A DNA stretch of 64,000 nt from Marisa cornuarietis (Eukaryota > Mollusca > Gastropoda > Architaenioglossa > Ampullariidae), in the NCBI GenBank assembly GCA_004794655.1, contig SMMW01000179.1, positions 573,501 to 637,500 of the forward strand, in the 5' to 3' direction. The notes beneath the pieces are model-generated. The model was not told where the DNA came from. It saw only the letters and a list, made by a program, of their open reading frames with translations, and did no database searches. Below, one piece after another: positions 7,195 through 61,756 of this stretch (the stretch's first letter is position 1; every line of letters begins with the position of its first letter). The position numbers were made by a program, and so were the translations under genes.

Positions 7195-7900
7195 TCACAG
7201 ATATATATAAATATATAAGATCATATTCTGATACAGGGTTTCTTTGTCTTCTGCCTCCTTAGCATCCCTCTTATCGGTTGTGGATAGTATAGCACCTTGG
7301 GTCCATGATGCTTCCAGCGAGACAGCCGAGCATGTTGAGGGCAGAGAAGTAGATATATAGTTGCCTCCAGTTTGGGCGAGAGATTTCCGCAACGCTTTAG
7401 TTGGGTTTTGCAGCGTTTTCCAAGTCAAAGCGAATTCAAGGGTTGGATGTGCGGCGTTTCAGCTTCAGTGTCAGCTTTGGGCGTGTCAAGACAGGACTAA
7501 TTACGTGGACGTTGCCTATGCCCGAGCCTGGATATGTCCTCGTTTTAGCTTAATTGTTGATGCTTGATCTGGAATGCCTTTTTTCAGCAGGATATTATAG
7601 TCGATCTGGTTATAAAAACGGACCATCTGGGGAGTGTCAGCCGTCCTCGTCCTTTGTCGTGGTGGAGGGTGTATTGCTCAGGGTGAGCCTGTCGAGACTC
7701 GACCTATGCAAACAAATCTTTATAGATCTATGTCGTTGGTTTCCCCTAGACCGAATTTGCCTTTCGTTCCTGCCCATAGCTGGCGCGCGTTTGCGTCGAT
7801 CTGGGCGTTCTAGTCGCTGAACACGTTAATTCTTTTCCTGTACTGCTTTTGTGATTCTTTCTAGATGTTCATAGAACTTTAAATTCCACTTCGTGCGTGG
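7195..7900 (-). pseudogene. LINE endonuclease-domain remnant
   Basis: Reading the minus strand across frames gives pieces of an APE-type endonuclease of a non-LTR retrotransposon: DWNAQID, LWAGTKGKFGLGETND and NQIDYILLKKGIPDQA, then the post-endonuclease linker with DLEKLQNPTKALRKSLAQTGG-like text. Frames are broken by stops and shifts, so it is dead. The motif order (GDWN-like, GKFG-GETN, NQIDYIL) is that of the RTE-like endonuclease/reverse transcriptases often annotated as craniofacial development protein 2-like. No reverse transcriptase follows in this orientation, so the copy is partial. Confidence 0.6.
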
Positions 7901-8106
7901 AGGTCGAGTACTATACACTTGCATGGTGACATTTTGAGGCCTGGCAGAGATGCTAATGGAACTCAGCCTGCCAGAGCTGGTGTACACTTTTCACTCTCCC
8001 GGCATTCCTGGAGCATGCCGAGGGGGTGCGCGGTCGTTGATGATTTAATAATAATAATAATAATAATAATAATGATGATGATTTCTATAGCACCTTTCTC
8101 CACCAT

Positions 8107-9280
8107 ACGAATCTCAGAGGCAACGGACGCACAACTTAGAGAAGAACAGGCTGGTTTTCGTAGAGGAAGAGGATGCACCGATCAGATATTTGCACTACGC
8201 AACATCATTGAACAGTGTACAGAGTGGCAGAGACAGCTCTACATTAACTTCGTGGATTTCCAGAAGGCATTTGACAGCATCCACAGAGAAAGCCTTTGGC
8301 GCATCCTGAGAGCGTACGGAATACCAATGGAAATTGTGCTGCTGATCAAAAGCTTCTATACGAACTTTTCATGCTGCGTTGGTGACAGTAACATCTGCTT
8401 TGAGGTCGGGACTGGAGTGAGACAAGGCTGCGTGATGTCTTCCCTACTCTTTAACCTTGTCATTGACTGGGTAATGCGCCACACAACGGAGGATGAACCA
8501 AGGGGCATAAGATGGACACTCTCCAAGAACTTAGAAGACCTAGACTTTGCCGACGACCTGGCCTTGCTGTCACACACCCATCGACATATGCAGGAGAAGA
8601 CGACTCGCCTGAACACCTTTGCGAAGCAGGTCGGACTGCACATCAGCCGGACAAAGACAGAAGTGATGACCCTCAACACCACCAATTCAACACCGATCAA
8701 GATCAACATAGAGGGAAAAGACCTGCCGATGGTTGAAAACTTCACATACTTGGGCAGCGTGGTCAAGCAGGATGGAGGAGCAGACCGTGACATCCAGAGC
8801 AGACTGAGCAAGGCCAGGGGCATCTTCTGTAGCCTAAGCAACATCTGGAAGTCAGCCCAGTACAGCACCCATACCAAACTGAGACTATACCAGAGCCTTG
8901 TCCTGTCCACTCTCCTGTACGGCTCGGAGTGCTGGCGAATGATTGACAGCGACCTCAACAAACTGTCAGTCTTCCACACCAAAAGCCTGAGAAGAATCCT
9001 GGGCATCTTCTGGCCAAGAACAATCTCCAACGAAGAGCTACTCGCCCAGTGTGGGCAAGAGAGTATGAACACCATCCTGATGAAGAAACGATGGCGCTGG
9101 ATTGGCCATGTCATCAGAGGCAACTCCATCACAAAAACTGCTTTACACTGGACCCCAGAGGGAAAGCGCAAGCGAGGCCGGCCCAAGAACACCTGGCGGC
9201 GAACCGTGGAGGCAGAAATGAAGACCCTAAATCACAGCTGGGGCACTGTGGGGAAGCTGGCCCAGGACAGACAAAAGTAG
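8107..9280 (+). pseudogene. LINE reverse transcriptase fragment
   Basis: The open frame encodes the reverse-transcriptase fingers and palm: QAGFRRGRGCTDQIF, then INFVDFQKAFDSIHRE (motif A), VGTGVRQGCVMSSLLFN (motif B), LDFADDLALLS (catalytic F-A-D-D) and VENFTYLGSVV. It continues to a C-terminal region with [18 protein letters not shown] and [14 protein letters not shown]. The frame is open from the truncation point (the upstream in-frame codons belong to flanking DNA) until TAG at 9278. There the sister copy at 23 kb has Trp ([20 protein letters not shown]), so this is a nonsense change close to the normal end. The clade is unassigned; it resembles the RTE/CFDP2-like group. Confidence 0.9.
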
Positions 9281-10553: not shown

Positions 10554-13500
10554 ATGGCGCCGACGGACGGCTACTGGGGGAAAGTGACATCAACTATTGA
10601 CTGGTGTGAAGAAAACTACGTTGTCAACAGATATGTTGCGGAATTTTGTAAGTATAATCTGTTGCGGTGCCGACAATCCGTAATCTGATGATCGATGCGG
10701 ATACCTTTTTAAGTTGGGTTTAACTCTTTGACAGATGGGCATATTGGAGGTGTTCCCTCTAAAATGTTCATTCGCTTATTTTGCTACCACAAAGACACAT
10801 TAAACATAAAGCAGAAACATTACATGTGCCACAAAAAGCTTGTAACCTATAGAAGTTGTCACCAAGGACAAACAGCAGATCGACGTACGATCGAGGTTCA
10901 AAGGTGTACAGTTACAATGTTACGCTATTAATGCCGTTAAGTGAGAAGACATTAGCAGTAGCTTACGGTATATGAATATAGATGTATTGTTAGTTGAATG
11001 ATCCATGATCGTTTAAATAAAGTTTTTTTTATGGTAAAATGATAATATGAAGTATAATTCTTCCTGCGTGCTCGATTTTTTTGTCACTATAGTGTGATGA
11101 CCAGCTCCGACACTAGCATTTAAGCCTACCTTTAGACTTATTCATACTCATTCATAAAACTGGAATATGCATAAGTCAAGTATCATGAAAGACATAACAA
11201 TTATATGGTTTATAATACACCAGCTGACGATTTCTGCTGCTACATGTACATCTTAAATCTGCGATTATATTGTCAACTTCTGATCTGTTGGTTTTTTGGA
11301 GTCAAGCCTCATTATGTTCATATGCAGTTGCAGTGTAGCAATATAGCCAAACACATCTCTAATTTGACAGGTTGACTAGTCATATTAGACAGTGTGGGCA
11401 TGAAACATTTGTGAACAGAGATACAAATTGCAGTAGTACCAGTTTCAAAGATCAGCGGTCATTTTGCCCCAGTCATATCACCCCGCAGCTTGAGTCAAAT
11501 TGTACTAATCAAGCATTACCCAAAGAGCCATACGTTGTTTGAACAATATAGATACGCAAGCTCAGTTGCCTATTTTAACTCTCTTGGTTTGAAAGCCCAC
11601 AATTGTGCTTTGCCGGGTAGCACGGGCAAGGCAATTTGTCCTGTCCTGACTATTTCTCTGAACTTCTCATCCCTTACTCTCCGGCCAGACAACTCCGCTC
11701 TTCCTCTGACAACCGTACTCTGACTGTTCCTGTCACCAGAACAACAACATATGGTCACAGGACTTTTGGCTACTGTGCTGCAAAACAATGGAACTCTCTT
11801 CCTTTCCATATCCGCCACCTTCCTACAATTGAATCCTTCAAATCTGCACTGAAAACGCACCTCTTCCTTGAGCACTACTCCTAGTCCACAATGCTAGTCC
11901 TTACCCCCCCCCCCTTCCCTCTTGCTACTTTACCCATCACTATTTTTCTCTGTTCCTGTTACTTGATGCCTTTTTGTTATCTGTTTTTGTCAGTACTGTC
12001 GTTTTCTTTCGTCCCCTGTGTTCTGTATCTACTTAGTCCACGTCTCTTCCCCGTTTTAAGCGCTAAGAGCATACTCTCTACGAGTGTGAATATGCGCTAT
12101 AAAAATCTTCACTATTATTATTATTATTATAATTTTCATTACTTTTTATTGCAAAGTTCAAGTTTTCTCTTTTCCAATAACATATAGTTTCTTTGTCTAA
12201 TGTTTATCTCAGAGCAGCAATAATAAAGAAAAAACTTCACCCACTGTCATCATCGCAGTCTTCAACTATAAGCCAGTCATTGTAATGTTACATTTTTATG
12301 TTGAACTAAGAGGGTTAAACAGAGCCATGCTAATAAGTTTAGGCACCATTTTACTAAACAAAAATGGCCCTTGGCAATGCACATGCAAATATCATATCTT
12401 ACAATGGTGAATAAACATGTTTTTTCTCTTTAAATTATCTCTTAAATTAAAGATTTTCTCATCATTTTATTGTGAACTTTTTTGACTGTTCCGGTACTAA
12501 TTGGTGATCTTTGTCTTTTGGGCCTGGGACAATTTGAGTTTTTGATGTTGGGACAAAATGGTCTTACCTGGAATGAAATGGACATAGCTGTGATAATTTG
12601 AATCAGGCTGGGGAGTGAAATGGTCATGTGGCAAAATGATTGGCCCTGGTTGCAAAACAGCTCATTTGCTTGCTTGCACTGCTCCCATTCTCTCTTTTTT
12701 GTTTGTTTTGTTTTCCTCTGGGTGCCTTCTGAAATTGCAACATTAGCATTTCCTTTGCAAAGTAGATGTAATTAACTCAATGTAGCAGTTTTGTTCTTTA
12801 TTTGGCATCAACAGTACCATTTTAGATCAGAAAAAAATAAACGTGCTCTGGGGCAAATAACACCAACCAAATATAGTCTATGACTGAACCAACGGCAACA
12901 GGAGTGTGCCTTTCAGATTTGATAACATTAGACTGCTTGCAGGTGTTTGCAGACACACAAAACCTCTCATGCATGCATACATATAAACACCTACAATATT
13001 TAAACAAGAGATTAAGATTTAGAGAAAAATGTAACAAACAACCAAATCAAGAAAATCTCTTTACTGTAGAAAGAAAACTTTTGTTTTTAAATTAATACTT
13101 TGATAGAAAAGCTAGAATTTATTTTTATCTCAAACATTGATTAACAAGAGTATAGATGATAGGTTTTTATATTTAAATCTCTTAGTACAATGTGCCATGA
13201 TTTAGGCTTTGCCGGCAGAGTACGATGGGCCATAATCGTGGCTCTGCTCATATGACCCAAGAATAAAAAACTGAATTTTCTTGGATTATTGCTGTCACCA
13301 GAGTGAAAGCAGGCAATTTTCATAAGTTTTATTCCAAAGTTTAAGTTTTCCACTTTCCAAAATTTATTTTTTTTTTTTTTGTCTAATGTTTACCCGAAAG
13401 CAGCAATAATAAAACACAAACTTCACCCACTGATGTCTTCAAAGTCTCAAGAAACATGCCACTGTTTTATTACATAATTTTATTTTTATACAGTGCTAAG

Positions 13501-22500: not shown

Positions 22501-24261
22501 AAGTTTTGTTTAAAGAACATAAATGTAATGAGAAACCAAAATCATATAAAAAGAGGACTTTTGCATCAGATTCATTTTGTTACGAGCATTTTGAGAGATG
22601 TTGAATTCACCTGGGACAATGTAATTTCTTTCCTCTCTTTATGTTGCAGATCTTTAAGACGTGAACAACTCCATAGTGCAGCCACACCATTGTTTGAATG
22701 TCATGCTTGGTGGCATATTTTGGCTGGAACAGGCACCTACCTATCTCTTGTCTTCGTGTGAGTTCACATGGGAAATTATTCTTCAAATGCATTGCTAGAA
22801 AAGACATAGATCCACATCACGCACTTGTATAAGTGAAAATGTGACTTTAAAAGAAATGCCATAACCATCAGCAGATGTGACTTCATTAGCTGTCTCGTTT
22901 ACTTTTGAAAATATACCTATATGCTGATGGGTGTAAGTACAAATAGCAGACTCCTGCCTTTGTGCAGCTTATTTTTGATGTATCCAGTTCAGGTCTTCTT
23001 TTTGCGTTTACTTGCAAAGTCATTCAGAGTTATGATTTCATATAGTTAAAGTTGTGTATGTGAAGTACACGCTTACAAAATGTTTGGTGAGTTCTTATTG
23101 TCAACACATTCTAAACTTACTTACTTACTGCCCGTTATGCCTGTCAGCACGTAGGGCAGCGACAAAGGTCCTCCACTTTTGTCTGTCCTGGGCAAGCCTC
23201 CCCACAGTGCCCCAGCTGTGATTTAGGGTCTTCAGTTCTGCCTCTACAGTTCGCCGCCAGGTGTTCTTGGGCCGGCCTCGCTTGCACTTTCCCTCTGGAG
23301 TCCAGTGTAAGGCAGTTTTAGTGATGGAGTTGCTCTTGCCTCTGATGACATGGCCAATCCAGCGCCATCGTTTCTTCATCAGGATGGTGGTCATACTCTC
23401 TTGCCCACACTGGGCAAGTAGCTCCTCGTTGGAGATTGTCCTTGGCCAGAAGATGCCCAGGATTCTTCTCAGGCTTTTGGTGTGGAAGACTGACAGTTTG
23501 TTGAGGTCGCTGTCAATAACACATTCTAAAGCCAGTATCTTAATGTTCGTGTAGATATGCTGTTGTTTATTAGGTCTGTATTTTGCTTCATGCCATGTCT
23601 TGTGTTATCTTAGTATTCAGGGTTAGAGAATTGGTGGAGTAGGGAGGGGGGTTGATGCTCTGAACCAGCAACTCACATTGAATCAGCTGTCCCTGTATAT
23701 AAACAAGCAAATAAAAAAAATTCACACATCTATCTGCGTATAATTAAAAGCACATTATTATGAATTCATACCAGCACTCTTGTACACTGTATATTTTTTA
23801 GTTATACCACTGTAAATAAATTAATTAAAAAAAAACAAGTTTGTACCATTGCATCGTTTTTGTTCAGGAGTTAAATCCATAGTTCATGCTGCTATAGAAT
23901 GTACACTGAATCCTGATATTGTCTTTGCAGAGCTCATACGCGTTACTTCATACTGGGGAGATCCCCACAGTTGAAGGTAAATGTTGTATTATAATGTCTT
24001 GGATGATCTACATGTATAGATAGATCGAGAGAAAGAGAGAGATATTGTCATATGTGATACTTTTGTCGAATGTAGGAGGTGGTAATATATATATCCACAT
24101 ATCCATAAACATAACTGATTCACCTTAGATTCTTGTTTGACATATATTGAATTTGTTTGGGTATGCAGTCTGCCTAATACAGAATTTTAAATTTGCAGTT
24201 TTTGTTTGGGTTCTGGCCCTATGTGAGTGTACCACTGGCCTGCAAAAAGCTTAAACAATGA
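10554..24261 (+). CDS. ACER3: Alkaline ceramidase 3-like (12 coding exons, complete)
   Basis: This is an integral ER/Golgi membrane amidase that hydrolyses (phyto- and unsaturated) ceramides to sphingosine. Coding exons are 10554-10647, 13601-13711, 14790-14842, 16983-17035, 17531-17584, 17798-17879, 18715-18750, 19003-19058, 20957-21058, 22650-22757, 23931-23976 and 24199-24261. All have GT-AG borders, and the phases join to about 285 residues (human ACER3 is 267). The start [20 protein letters not shown] matches the family. DWCEENY with the following VAEFWN gives the calcium-site residues. GSWAFHMTL (Ser and zinc His), LLDELPM (Asp) and CHAWWHIL (two zinc His) give the active site. [12 protein letters not shown] and the terminal FLFGFWPY are also diagnostic. 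Seven hydrophobic segments are expected. Introns carry several transposons, but no exon is damaged. Confidence 0.97.
11639..12130 (+). mobile_element. L2/CR1-type LINE 3' fragment (ACER3 intron 1)
   Basis: From about 11639 the sequence matches, on the opposite strand, the LINE end at 48421-48930. The open frame to 11881 encodes the extreme C-terminus of the polyprotein: [39 protein letters not shown], and [12 protein letters not shown] 3' UTR and a hairpin-plus-tail end follow: AGCGCTAAGAGCATACTC, then GTGAATATGCGCTATAAAAATC and (ATT)n. It is 5'-truncated. No clear target duplication was found. Confidence 0.85.
13981..14435. mobile_element. 455-bp MITE with perfect 15-bp terminal inverted repeats (ACER3 intron 2)
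   Basis: The left end CAGGGCTTCTGCTAA and the right end TTAGCAGAAGCCCTG are exact inverse complements (17 of 18 bases if extended). Inverted GGGGTCCC-containing segments lie further inside. Immediate flanks show a 5-bp direct repeat, ATTAA, on both sides. The CAGGG...CCCTG termini recall hAT elements, but hAT normally duplicates 8 bp, so the superfamily is left open. No transposase is encoded; it is non-autonomous. Confidence 0.85.
14999..16907 (-). pseudogene. hAT-superfamily transposase remnant (ACER3 intron 3)
   Basis: The minus strand encodes a degenerate DUF4371/ZMYM1-like hAT transposase. From the right: [37 protein letters not shown] (DDE Asp region), [44 protein letters not shown], ending in the hAT dimerisation domain [18 protein letters not shown] and [18 protein letters not shown]. 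It is broken by an in-frame TAA near 16410, frameshifts near 15650 and a TAA inside SFSKLKL (expected Ser) near 15260. CAGGGCCGGTGCTAGGC at 14999 looks like one hAT terminus. The partner terminus on the right is missing, so the 5' portion is lost. It is not a host gene. Confidence 0.85.
19255..20030 (-). pseudogene. Degenerate LINE reverse transcriptase C-terminus (ACER3 intron 8)
   Basis: The minus strand reads [18 protein letters not shown] and [11 protein letters not shown], then [14 protein letters not shown] and DLGINTANW. This is the order found in the C-terminal part of RTE/CFDP2-like LINE reverse transcriptases ([30 protein letters not shown]...W). Stops and frame changes show it is inactive. 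It is a different lineage from the 8.1-kb element. The left and right limits are approximate. Confidence 0.65.
20031..20956. other. Rest of ACER3 intron 8, unassigned
   Basis: This stretch is GC-richer than the surrounding intron and has several short open frames. It may be a further, more decayed part of the LINE at 19255-20030 or another repeat, but I recognise no domain or terminal structure in it. Confidence 0.3.
21650..21787. repeat. Two-copy 72-bp tandem repeat (ACER3 intron 9)
   Basis: Units starting at 21650 and 21722 share TGTTACTC, AAGGTTACTTCC, CACACTAAAATTAGC and CAACACA with scattered substitutions. The function is unknown. The segment GTTACTTCCCCTTG recurs inverted near 29150, so part of it may belong to a dispersed repeat. 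Confidence 0.6.
23103..23530 (-). mobile_element. 5'-truncated LINE fragment with 13-bp target duplication (ACER3 intron 10)
   Basis: Direct repeats AACACATTCTAAA at 23103-23115 and 23518-23530 flank the insert 23116-23517. On the minus strand it encodes [20 protein letters not shown] through [12 protein letters not shown] to [20 protein letters not shown], the C-terminus of the same LINE family as 8107-9337. It ends in the same TAAG repeats. Its reading frame lacks the premature stop seen in the 8.1-kb copy, and this copy carries a 2-codon difference (GKSNSIT against GNSIT). Confidence 0.94.
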
Positions 24262-41013: not shown

Positions 41014-44000
41014 CTTTGAAAGGGAAAGTGCTTCCACCGAAAGGCGATTTCGCACTGTGGAGGGGGGGGGGCAAGGGGGGAGCAGAGGGGGAAGCTGGAG
41101 GTGATGGTGGTAAGGAAGGAAGGGACCGGGAGAAGGGTTGTCGTTCTCTTTCGCCGCAGGTGTTGTTTACTGGTGTTGGTGCCCTCTGCCATCTGTAGTG
41201 CCGTGCTCTTATGTCCTGTAGGCCTGCCAAGTCCGCAGAGGTGGCGTACTCTCCAGGTTGCCGGATCTCTTAGGTTGCCCTATTTCTATATCCTAGACTT
41301 AGTTTGAGGACTTATTGAGATTTATGCTTGGCCTTTTTTTTTTTTTTTAAAGCTCTGGTTATGAGAGACCATTGTTTCAAGTTGTTTTTATACTGATTTG
41401 AAGAATAATGTTATGCTAGCAAGCTCATTTGTTCAGTTATATCCTAACCTATGGGTTTTTGTTTCAGTTATCAGAGTTTCCCAGGGGGAGGAGCTATTTA
41501 GTCATACCCTTTTATCTGTTTATATGAGCTTAGCATGAGGGTGGCTTGTTACCATTGTTACTACTAATGACAGTATAGTATGCCACTGCTCTTTTGGTGG
41601 GTTAAGACAGTTGTTAATGTTCAGTGCCAGCCTATGTTTATTTAAGACCTGTCTTAATTCTTCTCTTTCTTCTTTGTTTTCATGACACTCCAAAAGCACA
41701 TGTGGGGTGCTAAGCCTGTCCCCACATATGCATGTTATAGGGTCTTTGTATTTAATTAAATATTCTCCACTTAGCCTCATTCTAGTTATCTTAGACTGGC
41801 GGGGCCTACTTGAATTAAAAAAAAGTAGCGTATTACTGGGTTGGTCATCTACCAGTCTCCTAGTTCCTTTCCCTTCAGTTTTATATTTCTCCTGCCATCT
41901 TGTTTGTATTGCTGGTTTTATGGCTATTCTTCTCTCAGTTGGTGAAATAGAGATGTTTAGGGTGGTGACTTTAGGACTGCTACTCTGCTTTACAGCCAGT
42001 TTTGCTAGTTTGTCAGCTTTCTCGTTTCCTTTAATCCCAATATGGGAGGGGATCCAAAGGAACCTGACGTCTCCGTTTTCCTTGTTAATTTTATTTATGA
42101 GGGACAGTATCTCATATACAATGTCTATTCTGTTGGATGATTGGTTTTTAAGTGCCTGGAGTGCTGACAGGGAGTCCGATAGTATAAGGAATTGTCGTTG
42201 TTCAGTGTCTCTCAGTTTGAGTTGTGTCGTCTCAAGAGCTGTCTGTATAGCAGTCATCTCGGCTGTGAAGATTGACGTGTGGGTTGGGAGTTTGATTGAA
42301 AGGGTCATGTTGTCAGGAGAATAGATTCCCAGCCCGGTTGCTTGCGCTTCAGGGTCGTGGGAGCCATCCGTATATATTTGTGTAAAGTCCTTGTAGGTGG
42401 TGCTCAGTTTGAGTTTGATCTCTGAGGTGATTTGGTATTGGTGGCTGCCTTTGTTGTATTTGGTGAGGTCAGTGTCTATTTGTGGTCGCGGAAGTGTCCA
42501 AGGTGGAGTTTGCATGTTGGTGTGTGGGTAGGGTGCTGTAATTGCCGTTTCTGCTCCTTTTGTGTTTTCTATATGTTGGGTGTGTTGTTGAATAGTGGGT
42601 TGTGGGGTGGGGCGGCCTGTTCTGTGTCTGTGGGGTTGTATGTGGATCTGTCGGACTGGGTGGTCGGTAGGGAGACACTGCGTCTTATAGTAGTAGGTGG
42701 CTGTCCTCTCCTTGATAATCAGGTCTATTGGTTTTTGTCCCGTCTCTGCCAATATCGACAGGTTTGGAGTGTGCGAAGGTACACCCAACACTACTTTTAA
42801 TGCTCGGGCCTGGACTGACTGGAGTTTAGCTATGTGGTTTGACCTCAGGTGAACTAGGAGTGGGGCTGCATAAAGCAGCTTTGACATTACATGGGCTTGG
42901 TATAGGTTAAGAAGGGATTTTGGGTGGGTGCCCCAGTTGTTACCACTTACTACTCTCATTAGGTTAATTCCCTTTTTGGCAGCTTTCGTTATTTTATCTA
43001 CATAGGGGGACCAGTTTGTTTTATCCGAGAAAATTACTCCTAAGAATTGTACCTGGGAGCTATAGGTAATGGTTGTTTGGTTTAGTTTTAGTTTGGGATA
43101 TTCCATCTTTTGGTTTGGTTTTTTAAATATTATCGCCTGGGTTTTGGGGGCTGATAATTTAAAGCCATTATATTTTAACCAGTTTGCTACTTCATGGAGG
43201 TCCTCTTGGATCTTGTCAATTCCTATGATTTTAGGTATCTCGGGGTTGTTTGTTTTACGTATTTCTACTTTTCCTAGGAGGGAGGTGTCGTCTGCAAACT
43301 GTTTGACTTTTACGTGCTTTACACATTTGGGGAGGTCTGCGATCATTATGTTAAACAATAATGGACTGAGGACGCTCCCCTGGGGCACTCCATTATCAAG
43401 CAGCACCTCTTTAGACGTCTGGTTTTCCACTCTTATTGCTATTTTCCTGTTTGACAGGAAGGATCGAACTAATTGGACGATTTTGTTTGGAGTGCCTATG
43501 CGGTAGAGTTTCTGGAGCAGACCTTCATGCCAGAGCATGTCGAAGGCTTTCTCAATGTCCAAGAACACTCCACACAGGTTCACTCTTTTTTCGGTATGAG
43601 CGTTAATTATTTCCTGCTGTAAGGCTGTTATATGATCCATCGTACTACGTTTTTCCCTAAACCCACTCTGTTCTGGGGGTAGAATGTTGTTTACTTCGCA
43701 GTAGTAGTTTAATCTGCATTTGATTATTGTTTCAAACGTCTTGCCTAACTGCGAGGTGAGCGCTATTGGTCTGTAGCTAGCAGGGGATGTCTTTTCCTTA
43801 CCTGGTTTGGGGATTGGGACCACTGTAGCCATTTTCCACATGCTGGGGAGTGAGCTTTTATCGAGAATTTCATTAAAAAGCTCTAAAATATGAAGTTTAG
43901 TTTTATGATGACATTTTTGCAGCATTTCGTAGGTGATGAGGTCTGGGCCTGGAGCTGATCCCGGCCTTTTAGTTGTTAGGGCCTGCTCAAGCTCTTCCTG

Positions 44001-47000
44001 AGTTATTTTTTCTGTTAATTTAAAAGGGTCCTGTTGGTTTAAAGGGGGTAGAAAGTCTCGTTCGGCCTGTTCCCTATGTAATTTGAAGTCCGGGTCTAGA
44101 TTATAGTCTGCGCTAGCATCTTGGAATTGTTGCGCTAAGAGGTTAGCTTTTTCTTGGTTTGTTTCATACTTTAAACCATCTTTCAACAAGGTTGGCATTG
44201 TGGACCTGGGGCCCTGATTAAGATATTTTACCTTTTTCCAGCTGTCATTTAGGTTTGAATTTAAATCTAGAGATTCTGTAAACCTATGCCAGTCATCTTT
44301 TTTAGCTTGTAGGATAGTGTTTTTTTGCTAAGGACCGTGACTTTTTGTATTCTAGTCTGTTTTCGATAGTTTTATTTTTCTTCCATATCTTTAGTTTATA
44401 TTTTCTATTTCTAATTACCTTTTCACAGTCTTTATTCCACCATGCTTGGCCAGCATATTTATACTTGCTACCGTTGCCGTTTGGTGTTGCCGATTGGATA
44501 GCTTTCATGATACTGTTTGTCAGTTTGGCTGTCTTCGTATCTATGTCATCATCAGGGAGCCATACCTCACTCAGTAATGTTAGTGACTGGTATAGGTTCC
44601 AGTTAGTTTTTTTAGTATTAATTCTGAAGGTTTGAGGGTTTGGGTGATTTAGTTTGGTTTCTGGCATGGCAATCATGATTGGGAAGTGGTCACTCCCTAG
44701 GGTGTATTCTTCATAAACTTCCCATTTCAAGATATTTGCTAGTTCTGGGGTACATATTGATAGGTCTATGGCTGAGGTTGAGTCTGTAACGCCTTGGCAA
44801 TAAACATGAGTGGGCTGACCATTATTTAATAAACACATATTCGAATTATCCATTGCTTCTTCTAACATTTTGCCTCCTTTGTCTGCTTTTGGTTTATCCC
44901 TATCCCAGAGTGGGTTTTTAGCATTGAAGTCCCCTAGGATTAGAATGGCTGATAGGAAAACATTTGTTAGATCATCTACTGTGATTTTGCTGTATTTGTA
45001 CATGTTAGGGATGTATATGTTGGCTATTTTTAATTTTTTACCTGATGGTAAAGTGATTTCAGCTATGATTATCTCTAGTTCGGGGTTTAGTTGGTGGTTT
45101 ACTTCTGTGACTATTAATTCGGTTTTAACATAGATAGCTACTCCTCCTCCTGTGAGTGGTTTAGGTCTCGACTTGTAGATAGGGGGGAATTTATAGCCTG
45201 GAATTGGAATTGGTTCTCGGGCGAAGTTTACTTCCTGTAGGGCTATTACATCTGGCAAACTATTTTTAATGAAGTTTAATAGCTCGTGTTTGTTACTATT
45301 TAGTGTCCTGCAGTTCCACTGCATAAACTTCACCTGTTTGTTATCCATTTTAATATAGTAGTAAGTTCATCAGTCCTGACAGGGTTTGAAGCATAGTTAT
45401 TAACACTGGCATTTCTTTTTCTTTTAGGTCTTCATTTCTTATAATCTTGCTGCTATATTCATTTATTTTCCCCATTAATGACATGACAACTGCGGAAAGA
45501 TTGTCACAGGTCTCTGTGGTTTTTGTCGGGTCTGTTGTCGTTGGTGGGTGACTGTCTTGATCGGTGGTCATTGTATTTTCCGTTATTGTCTGGTTTTCTA
45601 TGTTGTGGTCATTTACTAGCTCTGACGCGGCTTCTTCTATGGTCTGTGAGGCTGGGACAGGGTTTTCTGACCGGGAAGCTGTCTGAGGGGCCGGTGGAGG
45701 TGGGGTTTGTTGTTCTTTGAGGGGCTCCCTAGTGGGTGCTGTGTCCTTTCTGGACCAGTACTTTTCTTTTGACGTGTTTAGCGCTTCCCTGTATGACATT
45801 TGGCCAGTTGCGCTGATCTGGCTGGCTTGCCTATGAATGACCCTACAAGGGCAGCCTCCATATCGAGCACTGTGGCCAGTGGTGCCACAGTTTATGCAGG
45901 CAAAGTCCTTGTTGTTTTGGATTGTGCACGCTCTGGTGTCATGCCCTTCGCCGCATCGCCCACAAACCGCCTTGAGTTTGCAGTTAGTTGCAACGTGACC
46001 AAAGCCGTTACAGTTGTAACACTGCCGTTCGGTCTGATGAAACTGTTCAACTCTGTAAGTTTGGTAACCTATTTTTACTGATGTAGGCGTCTCGCTGTTT
46101 TGGAATTCGAGGAGGATCGCCTTACTTGGGGCAGATTTGTTGTCTTTGGTTCTAAAACTGAATCTTTTTAGCGCTCTAACTTTGGGGCCTTTGTCGCTCG
46201 CTAATAATTCGTTTATTTCGTCCAGGCTTTCGTCAAGTGGGATATTCTTCACTACACCTAGTCCTTTTTGTTGTCAGACTTTACAGAGATGTTTTGTCCT
46301 GGTTGATAACATGTTATTGCTAGACCTAGGAATATTTTAAGATTTGCTGCCTCTTCCTGTTGGCTTTTATTTGAGCAGCCAATGATTAGTTTGTTGGTCC
46401 TGGGATTTGGCCGTATCTCTGCGACCTCACCTATTTTTCTTTTAACTTCTGTGGTTAACTTGACAGGGCCAGCTGTTACGATTGCCCTGTTTTCTTTTTG
46501 AACTGGGGCAATTACTATGGGAAATCGTAGCTCAGGCACGTTCCCTTGTCCTTTGGGAGATTTTGTGGGAGAAGTTTCCTTCTCCGATTTTTACTTACTA
46601 CGACTTGGAAGTCATCGTCCGAGTCTATATCAATGTGGTTGTCAAGATTTTGTTCGTCAGTCACGGTTGATAGTGAGTCGCTGCTTGTCTCACTGAGTAA
46701 AAAATCGTCTTCAAACTTCATGCTTTTTTTGGACAGGCTTCTGGTAATGATTTTTTCACTAGGTTTAGCTTTCCCTCTTTTGGTTTTCCGAGGGTGGTCC
46801 CCCATTGTGAACGCGTGCTGAGAAACAGCGGTCTTTTGGTTTAAAAAAAAAAAAAAAACTTTTTAGCTTATTTAGTGGAAGAAAAGTTTATCTTTTGGGG
46901 AGTACTATGTATGGAATTTGGCTAAAATTGGAGTTGATTTTACTCTGAAACTTATTTATTTAATTAGTATTTAGTTTTACTCAGAGGTAGTAAATAAAAA

Positions 47001-48063: not shown

Positions 48064-50801
48064 CAGATTAAATCTTGTTTACAAAAGGAGTCTGGAATTC
48101 CCCTATCGCGTCATGGCGTGATGTAATTTTGTGGTTTGCGTCACAGGGTCACGTGGCTTCCCGAGAACGTGCCACTGATCTACCGATGATGATGATGATG
48201 ATGATGTCCATTTGTAATGCACAGGTATCCATTCAGAAGAATGCTCATTGCGCAGCAAAAACAAAATAAAGAAATAGAATTAAAAAAGTAAATAAATAGA
48301 TAAAACACCAGGAAAGTAAAAAATTGAAAAAGAAGTGTTGCTTGATTGTTTAAGTCCGTCTATGCTTTGAACAACTAATAAAATAAAAAGGAGTTTGAGC
48401 CGCGAAACGTTACCCACCCATAATAATAATAATAATAGTGAAGATTTGTATAGCGCATATTCACACTCATAGAGAGCATGCTCTTAGCGCTTAACACGAG
48501 GAAGAGACGTGGACTAAGTAGACACAGAACAAAGGGACGAAAGAAAACGACAGTACTGACGAAACAGAAAACAAAAGGCATCAAGTAACAGGAACAGAGG
48601 AATATAGTGATTCTGCGAGAAAGATGGGTAAAGTAACAAGAGGGAAGGGGGCGGGGTTAAGAAGGACGAGCATTGTGCGGACTGTGTTAGGAGAAATGCT
48701 CAAGGAAGAGGTGCGTTTTCAGTGCAGATTTGAAAGATTCAGTTGTAGGAAGGTGGCGGATATGGAAAGGAAGAGAGTTCCATTGTTTTGCAGCACAGTA
48801 GCCAAAAGTCCTGTGACCATATGTTGTTGTTCTGGTGACAGGAACAGTTAGGATACGGTCGTCAGACGAAGAGCGTAGTTGTCTGGACGGAGAGTAAGGG
48901 ATGAGAAGTTCAGAGAAATAGTCAGGACAGGAGCCAGCAAAGAAATTAAAACACAGCACAGACAGTTTGTACTGAATGCGAGAACGGATGGGTAGCCAGT
49001 GTAGAAAACGAAGGAGAGGAGTGACATGGTCCCGTTTCCTTGCTCTAAGCACCAGACGTGCAGCAGAGTTCTGTACTCTCTGGAGTCTCTGAATGAGGTA
49101 GTCAGGGCAGCCTGCCAGCAAGGAGTTGCAGTAGTCAAGTCGAGAAAGAACAAACGCACAGATAAGAGTGTTGGTAGCGCGTGTAACCCTTCCACCCACC
49201 CACCCCCAAAAATACACATATAAAATTACACATTCAAATGGGTTACGTCTCTGGAAATGTGTACACATACAAAACCTTATGTCACCTCATTCGGGACGTG
49301 GAGCAGTCTGCAAACTACAAAAATATTATTTGCTTGACTGGGAACATAGACGAGAGTTTGCAAACTACCGAATTAAGATTTACCTGACTAGGAACGTGGA
49401 CTAAACTATAGAATTATGATTTAATTTTATTTGTGGACGTGTAGTGTGCAGCATCATGACCAAGAAAGGTCGCACTCTCTGCGCTGACCAGTGATGATAG
49501 AATGAAGACAATGGAAGGTTAGATAGGAAAATGCACACTGAACAGATGCAGTGTGCAGCATTGCCATTACATGGAATCTTCGATAAGTCAATAAAGTTCT
49601 GCATCTGAAAATATCTGAAAGTGTTTATGACATTTGGATGGAAGCTCAACTCCCAATCTTCGATACAGTGGCCCAAATTCCGCAGACATAAATATCGTTC
49701 CATCAACACAACTTTTTGTGAGAGCAACACGCTAACGGTCATTACAAGCTGAGCTTCTTGGACATACATAATGTCAGTCATTGCAGACTTGGCTGTACTG
49801 CACGCAAACTTGCTGGGACAGCTCCACATCAAAGCTCTCTGAAGCAGGTGCACAAACGTAATCAGAGTTTGAAGTCGACACTGACCATCCGCAGAACTAA
49901 CATCTAAGTAGTGGCAAGATGGCGCAGATGTGACAGTAGAAATGAAATGGCCCAGGACAAGATGACAAGTGACGCGCGGATATCGTAACAGATGTACTGA
50001 TGAACATTAGACACAAAACTTCGCGAAAATCAACGGGCAAATATGAAAAGTGAGGGAGAGCAGTCAGCCTCAAGCCAGTTAGACGTGGGCCATGTAGGGA
50101 TGTGGACTAGAGTCAGCAAACTACAGAATTACCATTTGCACGACTGGTAACATGGAGCTGAGTACAAGCAGCATTGGCGTTGGCAGTCTTCCTGTGATGG
50201 TCACAGGTGAACTGTATACATGGATGTACACAGCAGCAGTGTCGAAGCTGTTGGTGAGTGCAGGTGAACGAACTCGGGTAGCAAACGCTGGATGTTACAG
50301 CCGCTTAGCGAACAAAGAGCGAGCCGTAGGTTTGTTTGTGTGTGTGTGGGGGGGGGGGAATGCTAGTGATGCGTCTGTAACTCTAGCTACAGAAAATGGA
50401 CATTGATCTGGTTTGCCAGTCGTAAGTGAAAGACTGGCCTTGCTCTACTTTGCATAGAGAACCAACAGGGGAAAATAACTTTCGCTCACTAACATTAGCA
50501 AGGGAGGGGGAGGGAGGGAGAGAATGAGACTGTGCAGTGACAGTAATGTAGCGATTAGTGATCCTGGCGCAATGTCATTATCCTCCCTGTTGCAGAAGGG
50601 AAATCGACTTGCCATTTTTCTCATCTTTCTTTTGATAGGGAAGGTAGGCGGTGATGACTGGAGGCGAGAGGGATATTCAGTATTCTCCGGTGGAAATAAT
50701 TTTCTGTAGGACTGTGACTGCCTGCTCTGCGTGTGGGCGCGAATATTGTTCATGATGGCTTTAAGTTATCGTGCGGAATAAAGATCCCGCGCGCGCCCAT
50801 C

Positions 50802-50860
<59 letters not shown>

Positions 50861-53800
50861 AGGTGGTGTAGAGAAAATTTTAACGGAAAGCATATTGGAA
50901 ATGACAAAACTCGGTTTCAAAAGTGCTTATGGGAAAGCACTTATCAAAGAAAGTCTGCACGGGACTGTGTTTCTGGCACACCGCCTGTTCCGTTAGCAGT
51001 GTCTTTAGGAACTGTAGGCATGTAGCGAGAATGAATACACACTATGGGGCGTCAGGAAGATTGTAAATTGCAATGCTGTAAGCAGAGTGTGTTCATATTA
51101 TGATGGCGATTAAAGCACTTTAGTGTCTTTATTATGTAATTACCCTCAGTGAATAACACTCAGACTAGGTCTTCACAATCGACGGGACTAGTGCACACCG
51201 AGGAGTATCGAGTGAAATGCGAAGTACGTATTTGTGAGGTCAAAGTGTCAGTTGTTGGCAGTACACTATCGTTAAAGTAGCGATGCTGACGATAGAATAT
51301 CTTTAGACTAGTGATGCTGACACTACAATATCCGCAGAGTAGCAATGCTGGAAGTAACAATCTCTTAGGCTGCTTATTTTGACAATAAGATAATGTTAGA
51401 ATCCCAGCATTAAAGACTGCTATTTTTAGTTTCCCGTCAACCGAAGAGCATCATTTTTAATTATTTTTTTTACCGATTATTTAAGAGGGTATGAGAGTAG
51501 AAGAAGACGACACGAAAAAAGTGAGGGTTGGAACTGTTCTGAGGCTAAAGAGAAGGTTGTGGTTATTCTTAGTCAAGTCATTGGCTGTCGGGTTCACAGA
51601 CTTGCAGGAAATTGATTCTTGGCGGCGGGTTTGTGGGTAAAGAGAGTAGTGATTGGACAGGTGTGGCTCTGGCGCCGGTAGGACGTGCACACAATAAGTG
51701 GAGATCGAAAATCGCGCATACAGCGGCACAAAGAATTGTGAGGGAAGGTTTCACAGCGTCCAAAAGTTGTGAGGGAAGGTTCCACAGCGACAGAAAGAGT
51801 TGTGAGGGAAGGTTCCACAGCGACAGAGTTGTGAGGGAAGGTTCCACAGCGACAGAAAGAGTTGTGAGGGAAGGTTCCACAGCGACAAAAAGAGTTGTGA
51901 GGGAAGGTTCCACAGAGTCGCAAAGAGTTGTGAGCGAAGGTTCCACGGAGTCACAAAGAGTTGTGAGGGAAGGTTCCACAGAGTCACAAAGAGTTGTGAG
52001 GGAAGGTTCCACAGAGTCACAAAGAGTTGTGAGGGAAGGTTCCACAGAGTCACAAAGAGTTGTGAGGGAAGGTTCCACAGCGACAAAAAGAGTTGTGAGG
52101 GAAGGTTCCACAGAGTCGCAAAGAGTTGTGAGCGAAGGTTCCACAGAGTCACAAAGAGTTGTGAGGGAAGGTTCCACAGAGTCACAAAGAGTTGCAAGGG
52201 AAGGTTCCACAGTGGCTTGAAGCGTTGTGAGGAACAGTTATCATAGTACCAAGATTGGTGAGAGACGATTTCACGACGGAAGAAACTTTTCTGAAAACGT
52301 TGAAGACAAATTGCGGGATATAGTGGTTGTAAGAACTTTTTCTCAATTTACCCACAGAAATCTCAACCTACAAAAACCAAACATTATGTTGGAGTAAGAG
52401 TGATTGAAGTAAGTAAATGAAATTGACTGCCTGAAACAGTTGTTAATGTAGACTAGCCATTGTACACCCTGAAACAGTTGTTAATGTAGACTAGCCATTG
52501 TACACCCTGAAACAGTTGTTAATGTAGACTGGCCGTTGTACACCCTGAAACAGTTGTTAATGTAGACTAGCCATTGTACACCCTGAAACAGTTGTTAAAG
52601 TAGACTAGCCATAGTACACCCTGAAACAGTTGTTAATGTAGACTAGCCATTGTACACCCTGAAACAGTTGTTAATGTAGACTGGCCGTTGTACACCCTGA
52701 AACAATTGTTAATGTAGACTGGCCGTTGTACACCCTGAAACAATTGTTAATGTAGACTGGCCGTTGTACACCCTGAAACAGTTGTTAATGTAGACTAGCC
52801 ATTGTACACCCTGAAACAGTTGTTAATGTAGACTAGCCATTGTACACCCTGAAACAGTTGTTAATGTAGACTAGCCATTGTACACCCTGAAACAGTTGTT
52901 AATGTAGACTAGCCATTGTACACCCTGAAACAGTTAATGTAGACTGGCCGTTGTACACCCTGAAACAGTTGTTAATGTAGACTAGCCATTGTACACCCTG
53001 AAACAGTTGTTAATGTAGACTAGCCATTGTACACCCTGAAACAGTTGTTAATGTAGACTAGCCATTGTACACCCTGAAACAGTTAATGTAGACTAGCCGT
53101 TGTACACCCTGAAACAGTTGTTAATGTAGACTGGCCGTTGTACACCCTGAACAATTGTTAATGTAGACTAGCCGTTGTACACCCTGAAACAGTTGTTAAT
53201 GTAGGCTAGCCGTTGTACACCCTGAACAATTGTTAATGTAGACTAGCCATTGTACACCCTGAAACAGTTGTTAATGTAGACTAGCCATTGTACACCCTGA
53301 AACAGTTGTTAATGTAGACTAGCCGTTGTACACCCTGAAACAGTTGTTAATGTAGACTGGCCGTTGTACACCCTGAACAATTGTTAATGTAGACTAGCCG
53401 TTGTACACCCTGAAACAGTTGTTAATGTAGGCTAGCCGTTGTACACCCTGAACAATTGTTAATGTAGACTAGCCATTGTACACCCTGAAACAATTGTTAA
53501 TGTAGACTAGCCATTGTACACCCTGAAACAGTTGTTAATGTAGACTAGCCATTGTACACCCTGAAACAGTTGTTAATGTAGACTAGCCATTGTACACCCT
53601 GAAACAGTTAATGTAGACTAGCCATTGTACACCCTGAAACAATTGTTAATGTAGACTAGCCGTTGTACACCCTGAAACAGTTGTTAATGTAGACTGGCCG
53701 TTGTACACCCTGAACAATTGTTAATGTAGACTAGCCGTTGTACACCCTGAAACAGTTGTTAATGTAGGCTAGCCGTTGTACACCCTGAACAATTGTTAAT

Positions 53801-54071
53801 GTAGACTAGCCATTGGACGGCTTCGCATGCGGGTATTGTAATAACTGTTCCCGTAGAGTTAAGACTGGAGCAAGACTCTTTCGGTTTAAAATTGAAAAAA
53901 ATAAAAAATTGATAACCTTAAATCTGAGTTAAACACATTTCATAAACTTTTCTTTCTAACATTATGTCCCAGTGTGCGTAACTTGTGTACATTGTTTGGT
54001 GTGCAGGAAGAAAGGTTGCGACTCGAGAAGATGCAGCAGCAGGTAGAGGAGGGCGAGCTGCTTGTGGACAA
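33202..54071 (+). CDS. IQ-motif/coiled-coil protein, 5' part (4 exons seen)
   Basis: Four exons join in one frame: 33202-33427 (start ATG at 33290, 5' UTR before it), 34003-34041, 39542-39655 and 54007-54071. The predicted protein starts MACNEYSGAEVDFLSLAVD. Exon 3 gives EVAAVCLQKRWRGHLGRKRY, whose LQKRWRGHLGRK core fits the calmodulin-binding IQ pattern. Exons 3-4 then form a charged helix (LEKLLEKFEQ, EERLRLEKMQQQVEEGELLV), likely a coiled coil. Intron 1 uses a GC donor (AAG|GCAAGT), an allowed minor class; the others are GT-AG. Exon 4 ends in phase 2, so more exons must follow; I could not find them. The family is not recognised. IQ-plus-coil proteins such as the IQCJ-SCHIP1 group are possible but unproven. 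Intron 3 is over 14 kb and full of mobile elements. Confidence 0.72.
34665..34712. repeat. (GT)24 microsatellite
   Basis: An uninterrupted dinucleotide TG/GT tract of about 48 bp in intron 2 of the IQ-motif gene. Confidence 0.98.
36100..36720. promoter_or_regulatory. CpG-rich, promoter-like block with a possible first-exon donor
   Basis: Within an AT-rich intron this block is strongly enriched in CpG (CCGCCGCCGCCGCC near 36177, GCGCGC near 36306 and 36612). It contains a consensus splice donor, GAG|GTGAGC, at 36624. It lies inside intron 2 of the IQ-motif gene on the sense strand, so an alternative promoter with a 5' exon ending at 36623 is a reasonable guess. No protein is assigned. It could equally serve an antisense transcript. 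Confidence 0.35.
36721..39339. other. Intron 2 sequence of the IQ gene, unassigned
   Basis: Mixed composition with a short GT/GC alternating tract near 37963-37997. No exon, transposon terminus or RNA gene is recognised. Confidence 0.3.
39360..39541 (+). repeat. Degenerate ~32-bp minisatellite abutting an exon
   Basis: Imperfect repeats of roughly 31-44 bp share CGTGTGTCAAGAGGGACAC- or AAGGGGGTCACTTACCTGT-like text. The last unit runs straight into the acceptor (TGTGTACGTTTCAG) of the IQ-encoding exon at 39542, so the repeat supplies the branch and acceptor region. Confidence 0.55.
39953..40024. repeat. (TCA)24 microsatellite
   Basis: An uninterrupted trinucleotide run of about 72 bp, shortly after the IQ exon. 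It gives artificial poly-Met and poly-Asp open frames on the minus strand. Similar CAT runs elsewhere in the window terminate L2-type LINE ends, so it may be such a tail. Confidence 0.97.
40338..40580 (+). repeat. 60-bp tandem repeat within an open frame
   Basis: Units at about 40349, 40409, 40469 and 40529 are 60 bp apart and share (G/T)TATATCCAAGGCAGGTGAA- and CCGCAC-like parts. Because 60 is a multiple of three, they fall in frame in an open frame at 40261-40653 and give 20-residue repeats (VYPRQVNRP and LYPKQVYDC in neighbouring units). No promoter, splice or homology evidence supports a gene. Confidence 0.5.
40784..40973 (-). mobile_element. L2-type LINE/SINE 3' end with (CAT)n tail, copy 1
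   Basis: On the minus strand it reads TGCGCAATCAGCATTCTTC, GGATACCTGCGCATTACAAA, then TGGACATCATCAT. The paired GCGCA and TGCGC arms before a short-repeat tail follow the L2 hairpin-tail layout. A second copy is at 48184-48350. The 5' side is cut by a SINE-like insertion beginning at about 40974. Confidence 0.6.
40974..41240 (-). mobile_element. SINE-like (CAA)n-tailed element, second and longer copy
   Basis: This is nearly identical to 6857-7037, with a longer (TTG)13 tail at its left end and about 70 more bases on its 5' side. Shared landmarks are GTCTTTGAAAGGGAAAGTG, CACCGAAAGGCGATTTCGCA, a G run, and GGTGTTGTTTACTGGTGT. Its right-hand border is uncertain and no convincing target duplication was found. 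It lies inside or next to the L2-type tail at 40784-40973. Confidence 0.7.
41520..45348 (-). CDS. LINE ORF2: endonuclease, reverse transcriptase, RNase H (one frameshift)
   Basis: The first part (45348-44302) begins MDNKQVKFMQWNCRTLNSNK and carries endonuclease motifs ALQEVNF, LGDFNAKNPLWD and GSDHFPIMI. A run of seven A (44320-44326 as T) gives a one-base shift; six A would keep the frame. The second part (from about 44310 to 41520) has FREKRSTMDHI, VFLDIEKAFDML (motif A), GVPQGSVLSPLLFNI (motif B) and KQFADDTSLLG (catalytic FADD). RNase H follows with IYTDGSHDPEA, FTAEMTAIQTALE, ILSDSLSALQAL and WIPSHIGIKGNEKADKLAKL, so all four acidic/His positions are present. A terminal CICGDRLSTPHVLLECH zinc-finger-like motif closes it. 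Confidence 0.93.
45350..46805 (-). CDS. LINE ORF1: gag-like RNA-binding protein with CCHC knuckles (two frameshifts)
   Basis: ORF1 starts MGDHPRKTKRGKAKPSEK, with a basic then acidic N-terminus. A middle part, PNPRTNKLIIGCSNKSQQEE, is of RRM-like type. Three CCHC zinc knuckles follow (CYNCNGFGHVATNC, CGRCGEGHDTRAC, CINCGTTGHSARYGGC), then a Pro/Thr-rich C-terminus. The frame is interrupted at a GGG run (46543-46545 as C) and an AAAAA run (46265-46269 as T); one extra base in each would keep it open. ORF1 of this type coats the element's RNA. Confidence 0.88.
46860..47919. other. Intron sequence with fragments of dispersed repeats
   Basis: The segment ACGGATTGCTGTGAGCGTCT near 47767 recurs (as ACGGATTGCAGTGAGCATCT) near 40765, and GCTTGGTTGTTTAAGT near 47617 recurs near 48344. 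The pieces therefore belong to one or more dispersed repeats that the LINE and others have broken up. No coding domain is seen. Confidence 0.4.
47920..47965. repeat. Perfect 11-bp inverted repeat (hairpin)
   Basis: CACGCCGACTA at 47920-47930 is the exact inverse complement of TAGTCGGCGTG at 47955-47965, with a 24-base loop. A related palindrome, GTCGGCCGAC, lies about 25 bases further on. They may be terminal or subterminal parts of a small element. Confidence 0.7.
48015..48100 (-). mobile_element. Minimal retroelement end with (ATT)n tail and 8-bp flanking repeat
   Basis: TGGAATTC occurs at 48015-48022 and 48093-48100. Between them is, on the minus strand, a 35-bp stub (GACTCCTTTTGTAAACAAG and more) followed by about 13 AAT units. 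The layout fits a severely 5'-truncated LINE or SINE insertion, although an 8-bp repeat can occur by chance. Confidence 0.5.
48184..48350 (-). mobile_element. L2-type LINE/SINE 3' end with (CAT)n tail, copy 2
   Basis: This matches 40784-40973 closely: TCCATTTGTAATGC, GCAGGTATCCATTCAGAAGA, TTGCGCAGCAAAAACAAAAT, AGATAAAACACCAGGAAAGT and GAAGTGTTGCTTG. It starts at a (GAT)n run and continues past the site where copy 1 is interrupted, so it shows the undisturbed order (GCTTGATTGTTTAAGT). Confidence 0.65.
48421..49193 (-). mobile_element. L2/CR1-type LINE 3' end with probable target duplication
   Basis: On the minus strand this encodes RVTRATNTLICAFVLSRLDY, CNSLLAGCPDYLIQRLQRVQ, HWLPIRSRIQYKL and [14 protein letters not shown], the C-terminal part of an L2/CR1-group polyprotein, open to its natural stop near 48687. 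The 3' UTR ends in AGCGCTAAGAGCATGCTC, then GTGAATATGCGCTATACAAATC and (ATT)n at 48421. The repeat ACCCACCCA at 48412-48420 and 49194-49202 may be the target duplication. It is the same family as 11639-12130. The frame is open, so the insertion is probably not very old. Confidence 0.85.
49294..50155. repeat. Dispersed copies of a ~50-bp unit
   Basis: Units with GTGGA, TTGCAAACTAC, GAATTA.GATTT and CTGACT.GGAAC recur at about 49294, 49345, 49394 (partial) and 50105. The first three are near-tandem with a period of about 51 bp. The 450-base open frame on the minus strand between them has no recognised domain. Confidence 0.45.
50801..50860. repeat. (GT)n(GA)n compound microsatellite with G run
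   Basis: About ten GT units pass directly into about fifteen GA units and then GGGGGG. It lies in intron 3 of the IQ-motif gene. Confidence 0.95.
51735..52225. repeat. 33-bp minisatellite, about 15 copies
   Basis: Most units are 33 bp, for example GTTGTGAGGGAAGGTTCCAC followed by AGAGTCACAAAGA; the first few are 30-32 bp. Two main variants (GAGTCACAAAG and GCGACAAAAAG in the same slot) recur in a repeated order. Because 33 is a multiple of three, the array stays open on both strands, giving an 11-residue RVVREGSTESQ repeat on the plus strand (51612-52220) and a Leu/Pro-rich repeat on the minus strand. I do not treat either as a gene. Confidence 0.95.
52430..53816. repeat. 38-bp minisatellite, about 37 copies, with higher-order structure
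   Basis: The unit is CCTGAAACAGTTGTTAATG followed by TAGACTAGCCATTGTACAC. Variants are a 3-base-shorter form (CAGTTAATG), a 1-base-shorter form (CTGAACAATTG) and GGCCGTTG in place of AGCCATTG. A fixed succession of four variants (GGCCG; GAACAATTG; TAGGCTAGCCG; GAACAATTG) appears three times, starting near 53119, 53342 and 53680. This shows amplification of multi-unit blocks. It lies in intron 3 of the IQ-motif gene, about 200 bp upstream of exon 4. Confidence 0.97.
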
Positions 54072-59165: not shown

Positions 59166-60442
59166 TAGCAGAATGGATGTGTTTGCCTACATGCGCGGAT
59201 TGCTAGCACCAACTCCAAGCGAAGACAGCAGGCGGGTGGGACTAACGTTCGTTTGTTGTTCACCCTTGTTGTTGTGAACAGTGGCGTCCAATGACAGCGA
59301 TTATCCATGATGAAGATTTGTTCCTGTGGGTTTTCCCCTTTCTTTTGGCCCTCTCTACCCTTCACTCTTGAACTCCACCTTCACCTTCCTACACAGAATC
59401 TGAGCTTATCTCCATTCCTCGTGGAAGATGCCTTGGCGTGTGGTCAGTAGTATTACTGGACTACTGGTGCATTGAGTAGCAAGGGAGTCAGGTTTTGTCT
59501 CTCTTTATTTGTCACCTCCTTTTCTGCTAAGTGGTGTCTCTTTCTGTGTTTATTTTTTTTCCCCTTTTTTATATTTTATTTTTGTTTGTTTCTGAATGTC
59601 TTTTATCTCTGGTTTATTTTTCATACTGCTTTACTGTGTGGTTGCATCTTCATTTTTATCAGTTTTATTTTGTTTTTGTCTCTGTGTTGCTATGTTATTG
59701 TGTTGGTCTCATCTCAGCTTGTTATATGACTTGTCCTGTTTGTGTCTGTCTCTCTGTGGCTGTGTTGGTCTCGTGTCACCTGCTACCATCATGTCGCCTT
59801 TATCACATGTCATTAGGTCTTACTGTTTATTCTTTATATATCTGTCTGTACTGTACGGTCTTTTCTAAATATTGGCTGGGTCACTGGGTGGTGGTCTCCT
59901 ACCATCCATGTCATCTGCAAGTCAGAACAGGCAACGCCCGTGCTTGCCACTGCCTCCCAAAATGCTACTGCTACCTCTCCCCCACCACACAGCCTATAAT
60001 TAGAACTGTCAACACGGTAGGAGGGGGGAACAAGTATAGTGCCAAGTGGAGTAACAAGGGCTTGGCACCAGTGTAGACTGTAGATATCAGACCTGAGAAA
60101 CAGACCTTTCCATTGTCTGCCGAGGGTGAAGTGGGTATGGCGGGAGGATGCAGAGAGAAAACAAAGAGAGGGCGTTTAGGGCACTAAATTAGAGTAAGGT
60201 AAAGCCGAACAGTGAGTAACACACACGAGTGGTTTCATTCTGACCATGTTTGCTGTCCTGCTAGTGCACATAGGCTCCTCACACACACACACACACACAT
60301 CGCAGATGGTTGAAAGAAAACTGTGACTTCTGCCACTTGTTTGTTTTGTTTTAAAATAAAATTCGTTGTGAGATCAGTGCCATCCGCCAAATTCTCTCTT
60401 GTTACCCCATTCATATTTGTGTTTTTTATATTTGTCTTTTGA
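59166..60442. other. Unassigned T-rich and mixed sequence
   Basis: A T-rich stretch at 59500-59860 gives hydrophobic open frames that I treat as compositional. A short CA run lies at about 60279-60298. No gene or element is recognised. Confidence 0.35.
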
Positions 60443-60526
60443 TTAAAATTAAAAGGAAGTTTGTCCTATTACACATGCGCTCACGTGAGCGCATGTGTAA
60501 TAGGACAAACTTCCTTTTAATTTTAA
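60443..60526. repeat. 84-bp perfect palindrome with no spacer
   Basis: Every base of the left arm 60443-60484 pairs with the right arm 60485-60526, giving 42-bp arms meeting at the central CACGTG. The ends are TTAAAATT and AATTTTAA. It can extrude as a cruciform or fold as a 42-bp stem. Possible origins are a palindromic MITE, a fold-back repair product or an assembly artefact. Confidence 0.97.
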
Positions 60527-61317
60527 AGCTTCCCTGACTCAGTGATTATTCTATGAATGTGGATATACGCCTTAATGAGCTCAGCTGTACTGCTTGGTAT
60601 TGTGCATTCATAGTTCACTCCAGATTCCCACCAGTCCGTCCTTTGCAGCCACCGTCAAGCCCACGATAAGTTCAGCCACCCAAACTATTCCTGTCACCCT
60701 GTTCACCCTCGACACCCTGTCATGCTGACTGTTAGACTTTCAGCCACCCCAGTGTACTCAAGCTGCTCATTACAGCCATCATTCAACAATCCCGTTGTTT
60801 GTCATTACCATTGTCAGACATCTCATCTCTTCCAGTCTACTCACGCATTTGAATCAGGCAGATAATGTTTATGATTAGTTTGGTCATGTTTCTAGATTGT
60901 TCGTTTCTGAAAACAGAGATACGCTTGAGTTGGTTTGAGTTGATTTGTAGGCTGGCTTTGCTTTCTGATGTGTACAGCAGGTTTAAGGGGGTGTCATAAA
61001 TTTTCTTTTTTGAGTCTGATGAGTAATATTTTTTGTACGACACTTCATTTCCCTAGGATAATATTGCAATATCTTCTCTTCAAAATATTGCAATACTATC
61101 CAATGGAAATATTATTTCTGGAATTGGTTCTTCCATTGCGGATGCCGTTGTAAAGGGATACATCTTGTAATAACTAACAAACAATAGTTCACGCGGTTGC
61201 ATCAGCGTGTCATCAATCCACAGCACGACCGGTAGGTTACACACATACAGACAGTTCATGCTTCTGAATATATGCGTGAATGCGCGAGGGTGACCACGCC
61301 TGTTGGTTCAAATAGAC

Positions 61318-61756
61318 ACGTACGTGTGTGTGTGTGTGTGTGTGTTTGTACGTGTGTGTGTGTGTGTGTTTGTACGTGTGCGTGTGTGTGTTTGTACGTG
61401 TGTGTGTGTGTGTTTGTACGTGTGCGTGTGTGTACGTGTGTGTGTGTTTGTACGTGTGTGTGTGTGTGTGTGTTCACGTGTGTGTGTGTTTTTACGTGTG
61501 TGTGTGTGTTTGTACGTGTGCGTGTGTGTTTGTACGTGTGTGTGTACGTGTGTGTGTGTGTTTGTACGTGTGTGTGTGTTTGTACGTGTGCGTGTGTGTG
61601 TACGTGTGTGTGTTTGTACGTGTGCGTGTGTGTGTACGTGTGTGTGTTTGTACGTGTGCGTGTGTGTGTACGTGTGTGTGTGTTTGTACGTGTGCGTGTG
61701 TGTGTGTACGTGTGCGTGTGTGTGTGTGTTTGTGCGTGTGTGTGTGTGTGTGTGCA
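61318..61756. repeat. 440-bp GT-rich array with ACGTGTG and TTTGTACGTG units
   Basis: Runs of GT alternate with TTTGTACGTGTG and TGTACGTGTG on a semi-regular spacing of about 18-40 bp, making a compound minisatellite. Most of it is alternating purine-pyrimidine, the sequence type that favours Z-DNA. Long open frames in five of the six frames (Cys/Val-rich or Thr/His-rich) are products of the repeat, not genes. Confidence 0.95.

Follow-up and report, generated by a model that had tools for sequence, protein, structure and literature searches.

At positions 60443-60526, the window (the whole 64-kb stretch of animal DNA that was analysed, positions 573501-637500 of a 1,198,745-base contig) contains a palindrome with the following parts:

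60443-60526: palindrome, 84 bp, perfect, with 42-nt arms and a 0-nt spacer
60443..60484, plus strand: left arm, 42 nt, exact reverse complement of the right arm
60485..60526, plus strand: right arm, 42 nt, 100% complementary to the left arm
60480..60489, no strand: centre, CTCACGTGAG, holding CACGTG (from the sequence and the minimum free energy folds as DNA and RNA)
60443..60446, no strand: left-end TTAA, a candidate copy of a target site
60523..60526, no strand: TTAA at the right end, mirror of the left TTAA and hence not independent of it

The preliminary description had reported a perfect, spacerless 84-bp palindrome with two 42-bp arms and a CACGTG centre, which was confirmed exactly. TTAA was likewise present at both ends as described; lying within the palindrome, it represents one coincidence and not two. 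Beyond the ends, 5 of 30 flanking positions mirror each other, i.e. the symmetry stops abruptly. None of the listed open reading frames (ORFs) of at least 60 aa overlaps the palindrome, and Pfam returned no match for any of the 10 ORFs between 59144 and 63907, a result that leaves room for small exons nearby. The locus looks intergenic or intronic and apparently non-coding. An array of the GTACGTGTGT type with a period of ~18-34 bp (61320-61754) starts ~800 bp downstream of the palindrome.

Elsewhere in the window, ARGLU1 was the only host-type gene recognised among 20 ORFs scanned, through an exon at 4414-4914 (minus strand; Pfam PF15346, E 6.6e-19). Several reverse-transcriptase elements are present. 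One is a non-LTR retroelement with long open frames (41520-46273, minus strand), which consists of:

45353-46273, minus strand: zinc-knuckle ORF
44305-45366, minus strand: endonuclease
41523-44327, minus strand: reverse transcriptase and RNase H

Neighbouring ORFs of this element overlap by ~15-25 bases, and its reverse transcriptase gave 46% identity over the whole query, the best among the 120 of 2110 matches listed; the open frames suggest that the element may have been active recently. A reverse-transcriptase-type retroelement is present in two copies of opposite orientation (7883-9280 and 23125-23604; 95% alike over ~400 bp). An inverted pair of ~500 bp (11639-12130 and 48420-48932; 90% alike, 36 kb apart) probably belongs to a dispersed repeat family; pieces of both members recur in a sampled stretch of the assembly (L004) at 86-90% identity. 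Two tandem arrays adjoin each other, one with a 38-bp unit (52430-53815; ~37 copies, 94% matches) and one with a 33-bp unit (51720-52212; ~15 copies), the latter open in several frames.

The length of the palindrome was compared with what occurs by chance and elsewhere in the assembly. No second spacerless perfect palindrome with arms of at least 10 nt was found in the 64-kb window, where the runner-up among perfect inverted repeats (spacer up to 60) has 12-nt arms. In five first-order Markov sequences, each of window length, the longest spacerless arm was 12 nt (one sequence), 8 nt (three sequences) or below 8 nt (one sequence). A sample of the assembly (17 stretches, 162,000 bases; arms of at least 10, spacers up to 20; L013-L015 excluded as containing the palindrome) yielded 19 rows of perfect inverted repeats, 9 of which were overlapping rows from one TA microsatellite in stretch L009; this TA repeat also held the longest arm of the sample (14 nt). 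The palindrome is an outlier, far beyond chance. Spacerless perfect palindromes are enriched in eukaryotes and tend to be AT-rich (extracts of PMC13155455).

Copy number was determined in the assembly (534,278,870 bases, 534 Mb; 572 contigs). With the full 84 bp as query on both strands, the only match was the palindrome itself; this search scores the best candidates only and skips very common words, and alone is no proof of rarity. A separate pattern search with a 27-mer of the arm, allowing up to 3 mismatches, returned the two arms only, and the reversed control gave 0 matches; within the window, no further arm copy occurred within 3 mismatches of the 27-mer. A blastn-short search of the window gave, in its best 25 rows, no match longer than 14 nt apart from the two arms. 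Positions 60301-60700 as query gave, besides themselves, weak matches only; the best of these (E 0.006) covered 37 bp of the T-rich left flank at 81%. Searches of viral contigs and prokaryote genomes (exact pattern) and of plasmids (blastn) returned nothing, which is no surprise for an animal locus and hardly informative on an animal repeat. In the literature text searched, none of six pieces of the sequence occurred. As for a larger inverted element around the palindrome, 60000-61000 holds one other inverted pair (19 nt, 84%, 559 nt between the arms), which was taken as chance. At the sensitivity of the two assembly searches the palindrome is single-copy, and very diverged copies are possible.

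The TTAA ends had earlier been read as fitting a palindromic MITE inserted at a TTAA site, with a genome search for the arm proposed as a check; that search, now run, gave one locus and points away from a MITE. The 84-bp palindrome is short and non-coding with terminal inverted repeats, as in MITEs, but where a MITE has several to many copies, one locus was found in the 534-Mb assembly. A multicopy MITE family is thus strongly disfavoured, although the ends would fit. Because the palindrome was found once in the genome, a copying accident of replication is the probable source rather than a jumping-gene family.

A MITE-like transposon insertion that consists of ends only, and that is present once or has relatives which diverged too far to be found, is unlikely on balance. 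If 4 bases are stripped from each end, TTAA is left on both sides of an element with AA..TT ends (76 bp, Kolobok-like); if 3 are stripped, TA is left (78 bp, Tc1/mariner-like). Kolobok elements duplicate TTAA and have RR..YY ends (extracts of PMC9587614), with which the letters of the palindrome agree. Mobile DNA is also common in the window, retroelement ORFs making up 5 of 10 in one scan. The strongest counterpoint is that neither the full-length nor the 27-mer search recovered a second copy. Moreover, the candidate target duplications (TA for the 78-bp element, TTAA for the 76-bp element, and the inner AT, AATT, TA and TTAA) all fall within the symmetry, and direct repeats of 2-12 nt are absent outside the palindrome. 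Since a duplication that is itself palindromic looks the same as palindrome arm, TTAA is no independent evidence of a target-site duplication. TTAA occurs in the window at a frequency of 0.0065, which makes it mildly surprising at the palindrome end; several other end sequences would equally have been called suggestive. Until copies are counted, TTAA at the ends of a palindrome says little in favour of a transposon. The ends are also unlike the starts of piggyBac elements, which are mostly CCC.. and in some cases CACTA according to extracts of PMC10813416; piggyBac was rejected by this rule of C-rich termini, as AATTAAAAGG stands inside the outer TTAA.

A narrower form of the transposon explanation is a founder insertion. 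The palindrome would then be a brand-new spacerless ends-only element of a TTAA- or TA-targeting superfamily, seen as one copy before multiplying and possibly born when a fold-back switch duplicated the end of a parent element. We regard such a founder as very improbable.

Exact perfection and a single copy are also what a sequencing or assembly artefact (fold-back read, hairpin adapter or wrong inverted join) could leave. A read that folds back is expected to carry the mirror image of its entire insert, and joining contigs the wrong way round produces mirroring over long stretches. Here, however, the symmetry ends after 42 nt and both flanks continue unmirrored, inside a contig of 1,198,745 bases. 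Given 42-bp arms between non-mirrored flanks on both sides, a fold-back read is unlikely, and artefacts of all three kinds together are considered clearly improbable.

The perfection of the arms limits the age of the palindrome loosely. Assuming independent substitutions only, 84 unchanged sites have a probability of 50% at a divergence of 0.8% per site and of 5% at 3.6%. The preliminary description had concluded that a perfect inverted repeat must be very young, gene-converted or artificial; a very young age is not forced, since 3.6% divergence would still leave perfection with a probability of 5%.

Folding was predicted for the palindrome and its surroundings. As single-stranded DNA, 60403-60566 folds with z = -14.1, and both the DNA and the RNA fold give a predicted hairpin of ~40 pairs with a 4-nt ACGT loop and CTC/GAG as the first stem pairs; by these models, the palindrome can form a hairpin or cruciform. 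If transcribed, it would give a very stable predicted RNA hairpin (z -13.5). This stability, together with the central CACGTG, a canonical E-box motif, would suit a functional hairpin, i.e. a recently arisen microRNA or hairpin-RNA gene, or an E-box whose symmetry is maintained by selection or by conversion between the arms. At 60300-60700 (401 bases), 30 Rfam matches had an E of up to 1, the lowest (2.4e-9) being to MIR2630, a long-hairpin microRNA family. All 30 were below the gathering score (best scores 51.8 bits vs 140 and 51.2 vs 144), and these matches were taken as reflecting stem shape. At the gathering score Rfam found nothing across the window, including any known microRNA precursor family, and no tRNAs were found. 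Predictions resembling bacterial terminators were set aside, being mostly the same hairpin seen again and inapplicable to animal DNA. A protein dimer site, for its part, requires far less than 84 bp. A functional hairpin of this kind is highly improbable, and the palindrome is most likely without function itself.

The best explanation, which we consider somewhat probable, is that a local fold-back template switch produced the palindrome or, in a variant, removed the mismatches from an inverted repeat that already existed in imperfect form. The nascent strand, in replication or in repair synthesis, would double back at the centre, probably near CTCACGTGAG, and prime itself at the ACGT loop and CTC-GAG stem; up to ~40 nt of the just-made arm would be copied before the strand returned to its normal template. 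The outcome would be a perfect spacerless inverted duplication at a single locus. The copying event is inferred, as are its direction and age. Abrupt ends, perfect arms and presence at one locus agree with the prediction of a template switch, and a perfect reverse-complement copy of the adjacent sequence was found at one locus. The closed 4-nt loop with CTC/GAG in the folded strand makes a fold-back primer physically possible; the palindromic centre as such is no independent evidence of self-priming, because every spacerless palindrome has one.

Precedents exist for such events. In great apes, short-range template switches often leave perfect inverted repeats, the majority of the rearrangement patterns yield single inverted repeats, and the copied length has a median of 12 and a maximum of 128 (extracts of PMC7954356). 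One switch can make a perfect hairpin stem; in RNA genes, the largest switch-like pattern, of up to 59 bp, failed the quality control of that study (extracts of PMC8794818). Against a template switch, a copied length of ~40 nt is well above the median of 12 in apes (extracts of PMC7954356), the pattern of up to 59 bp did not pass quality control (extracts of PMC8794818), and the TTAA ends would be a coincidence.

If the palindrome arose by template switching, it is a clean example of a single replication error that gave animal DNA a long perfect hairpin; such hairpins could be the starting point of hairpin RNAs or of transposons made of ends only. It is striking in sequence and of modest interest.

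Among known systems, the mitochondrial genes of Nematomorpha also contain long perfect palindromes in animal DNA for which template switching has been proposed; there, however, 110 repeats lie within genes of four mitochondrial genomes, whereas the palindrome is one locus in no recognised gene, on a contig that carries ARGLU1 and retroelements (extracts of PMC6649704). Kolobok elements resemble it in the TTAA at the ends and the adjoining RR..YY, here AA..TT (extracts of PMC9587614). The palindrome differs from them in having no further copy found and in holding the TTAA inside its own symmetry. Made1 elements have many genomic copies. The human Made1 element, a mariner-derived MITE, is a near-palindrome of 80 bp with two 37-bp ends and 6 bp between them, a close architectural match to the 76-84 bp of the palindrome in that almost all of it is inverted ends; it differs in its 6-bp middle, the palindrome having no middle and one copy found (extracts of PMC1784062). 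Compared with template-switch mutations under the four-point model, the palindrome is longer than the typical event and has no spacer, but it resembles them in being a single-locus perfect inverted repeat with abrupt ends and a length within the maximum of 128 (extracts of PMC7954356 and PMC8794818).
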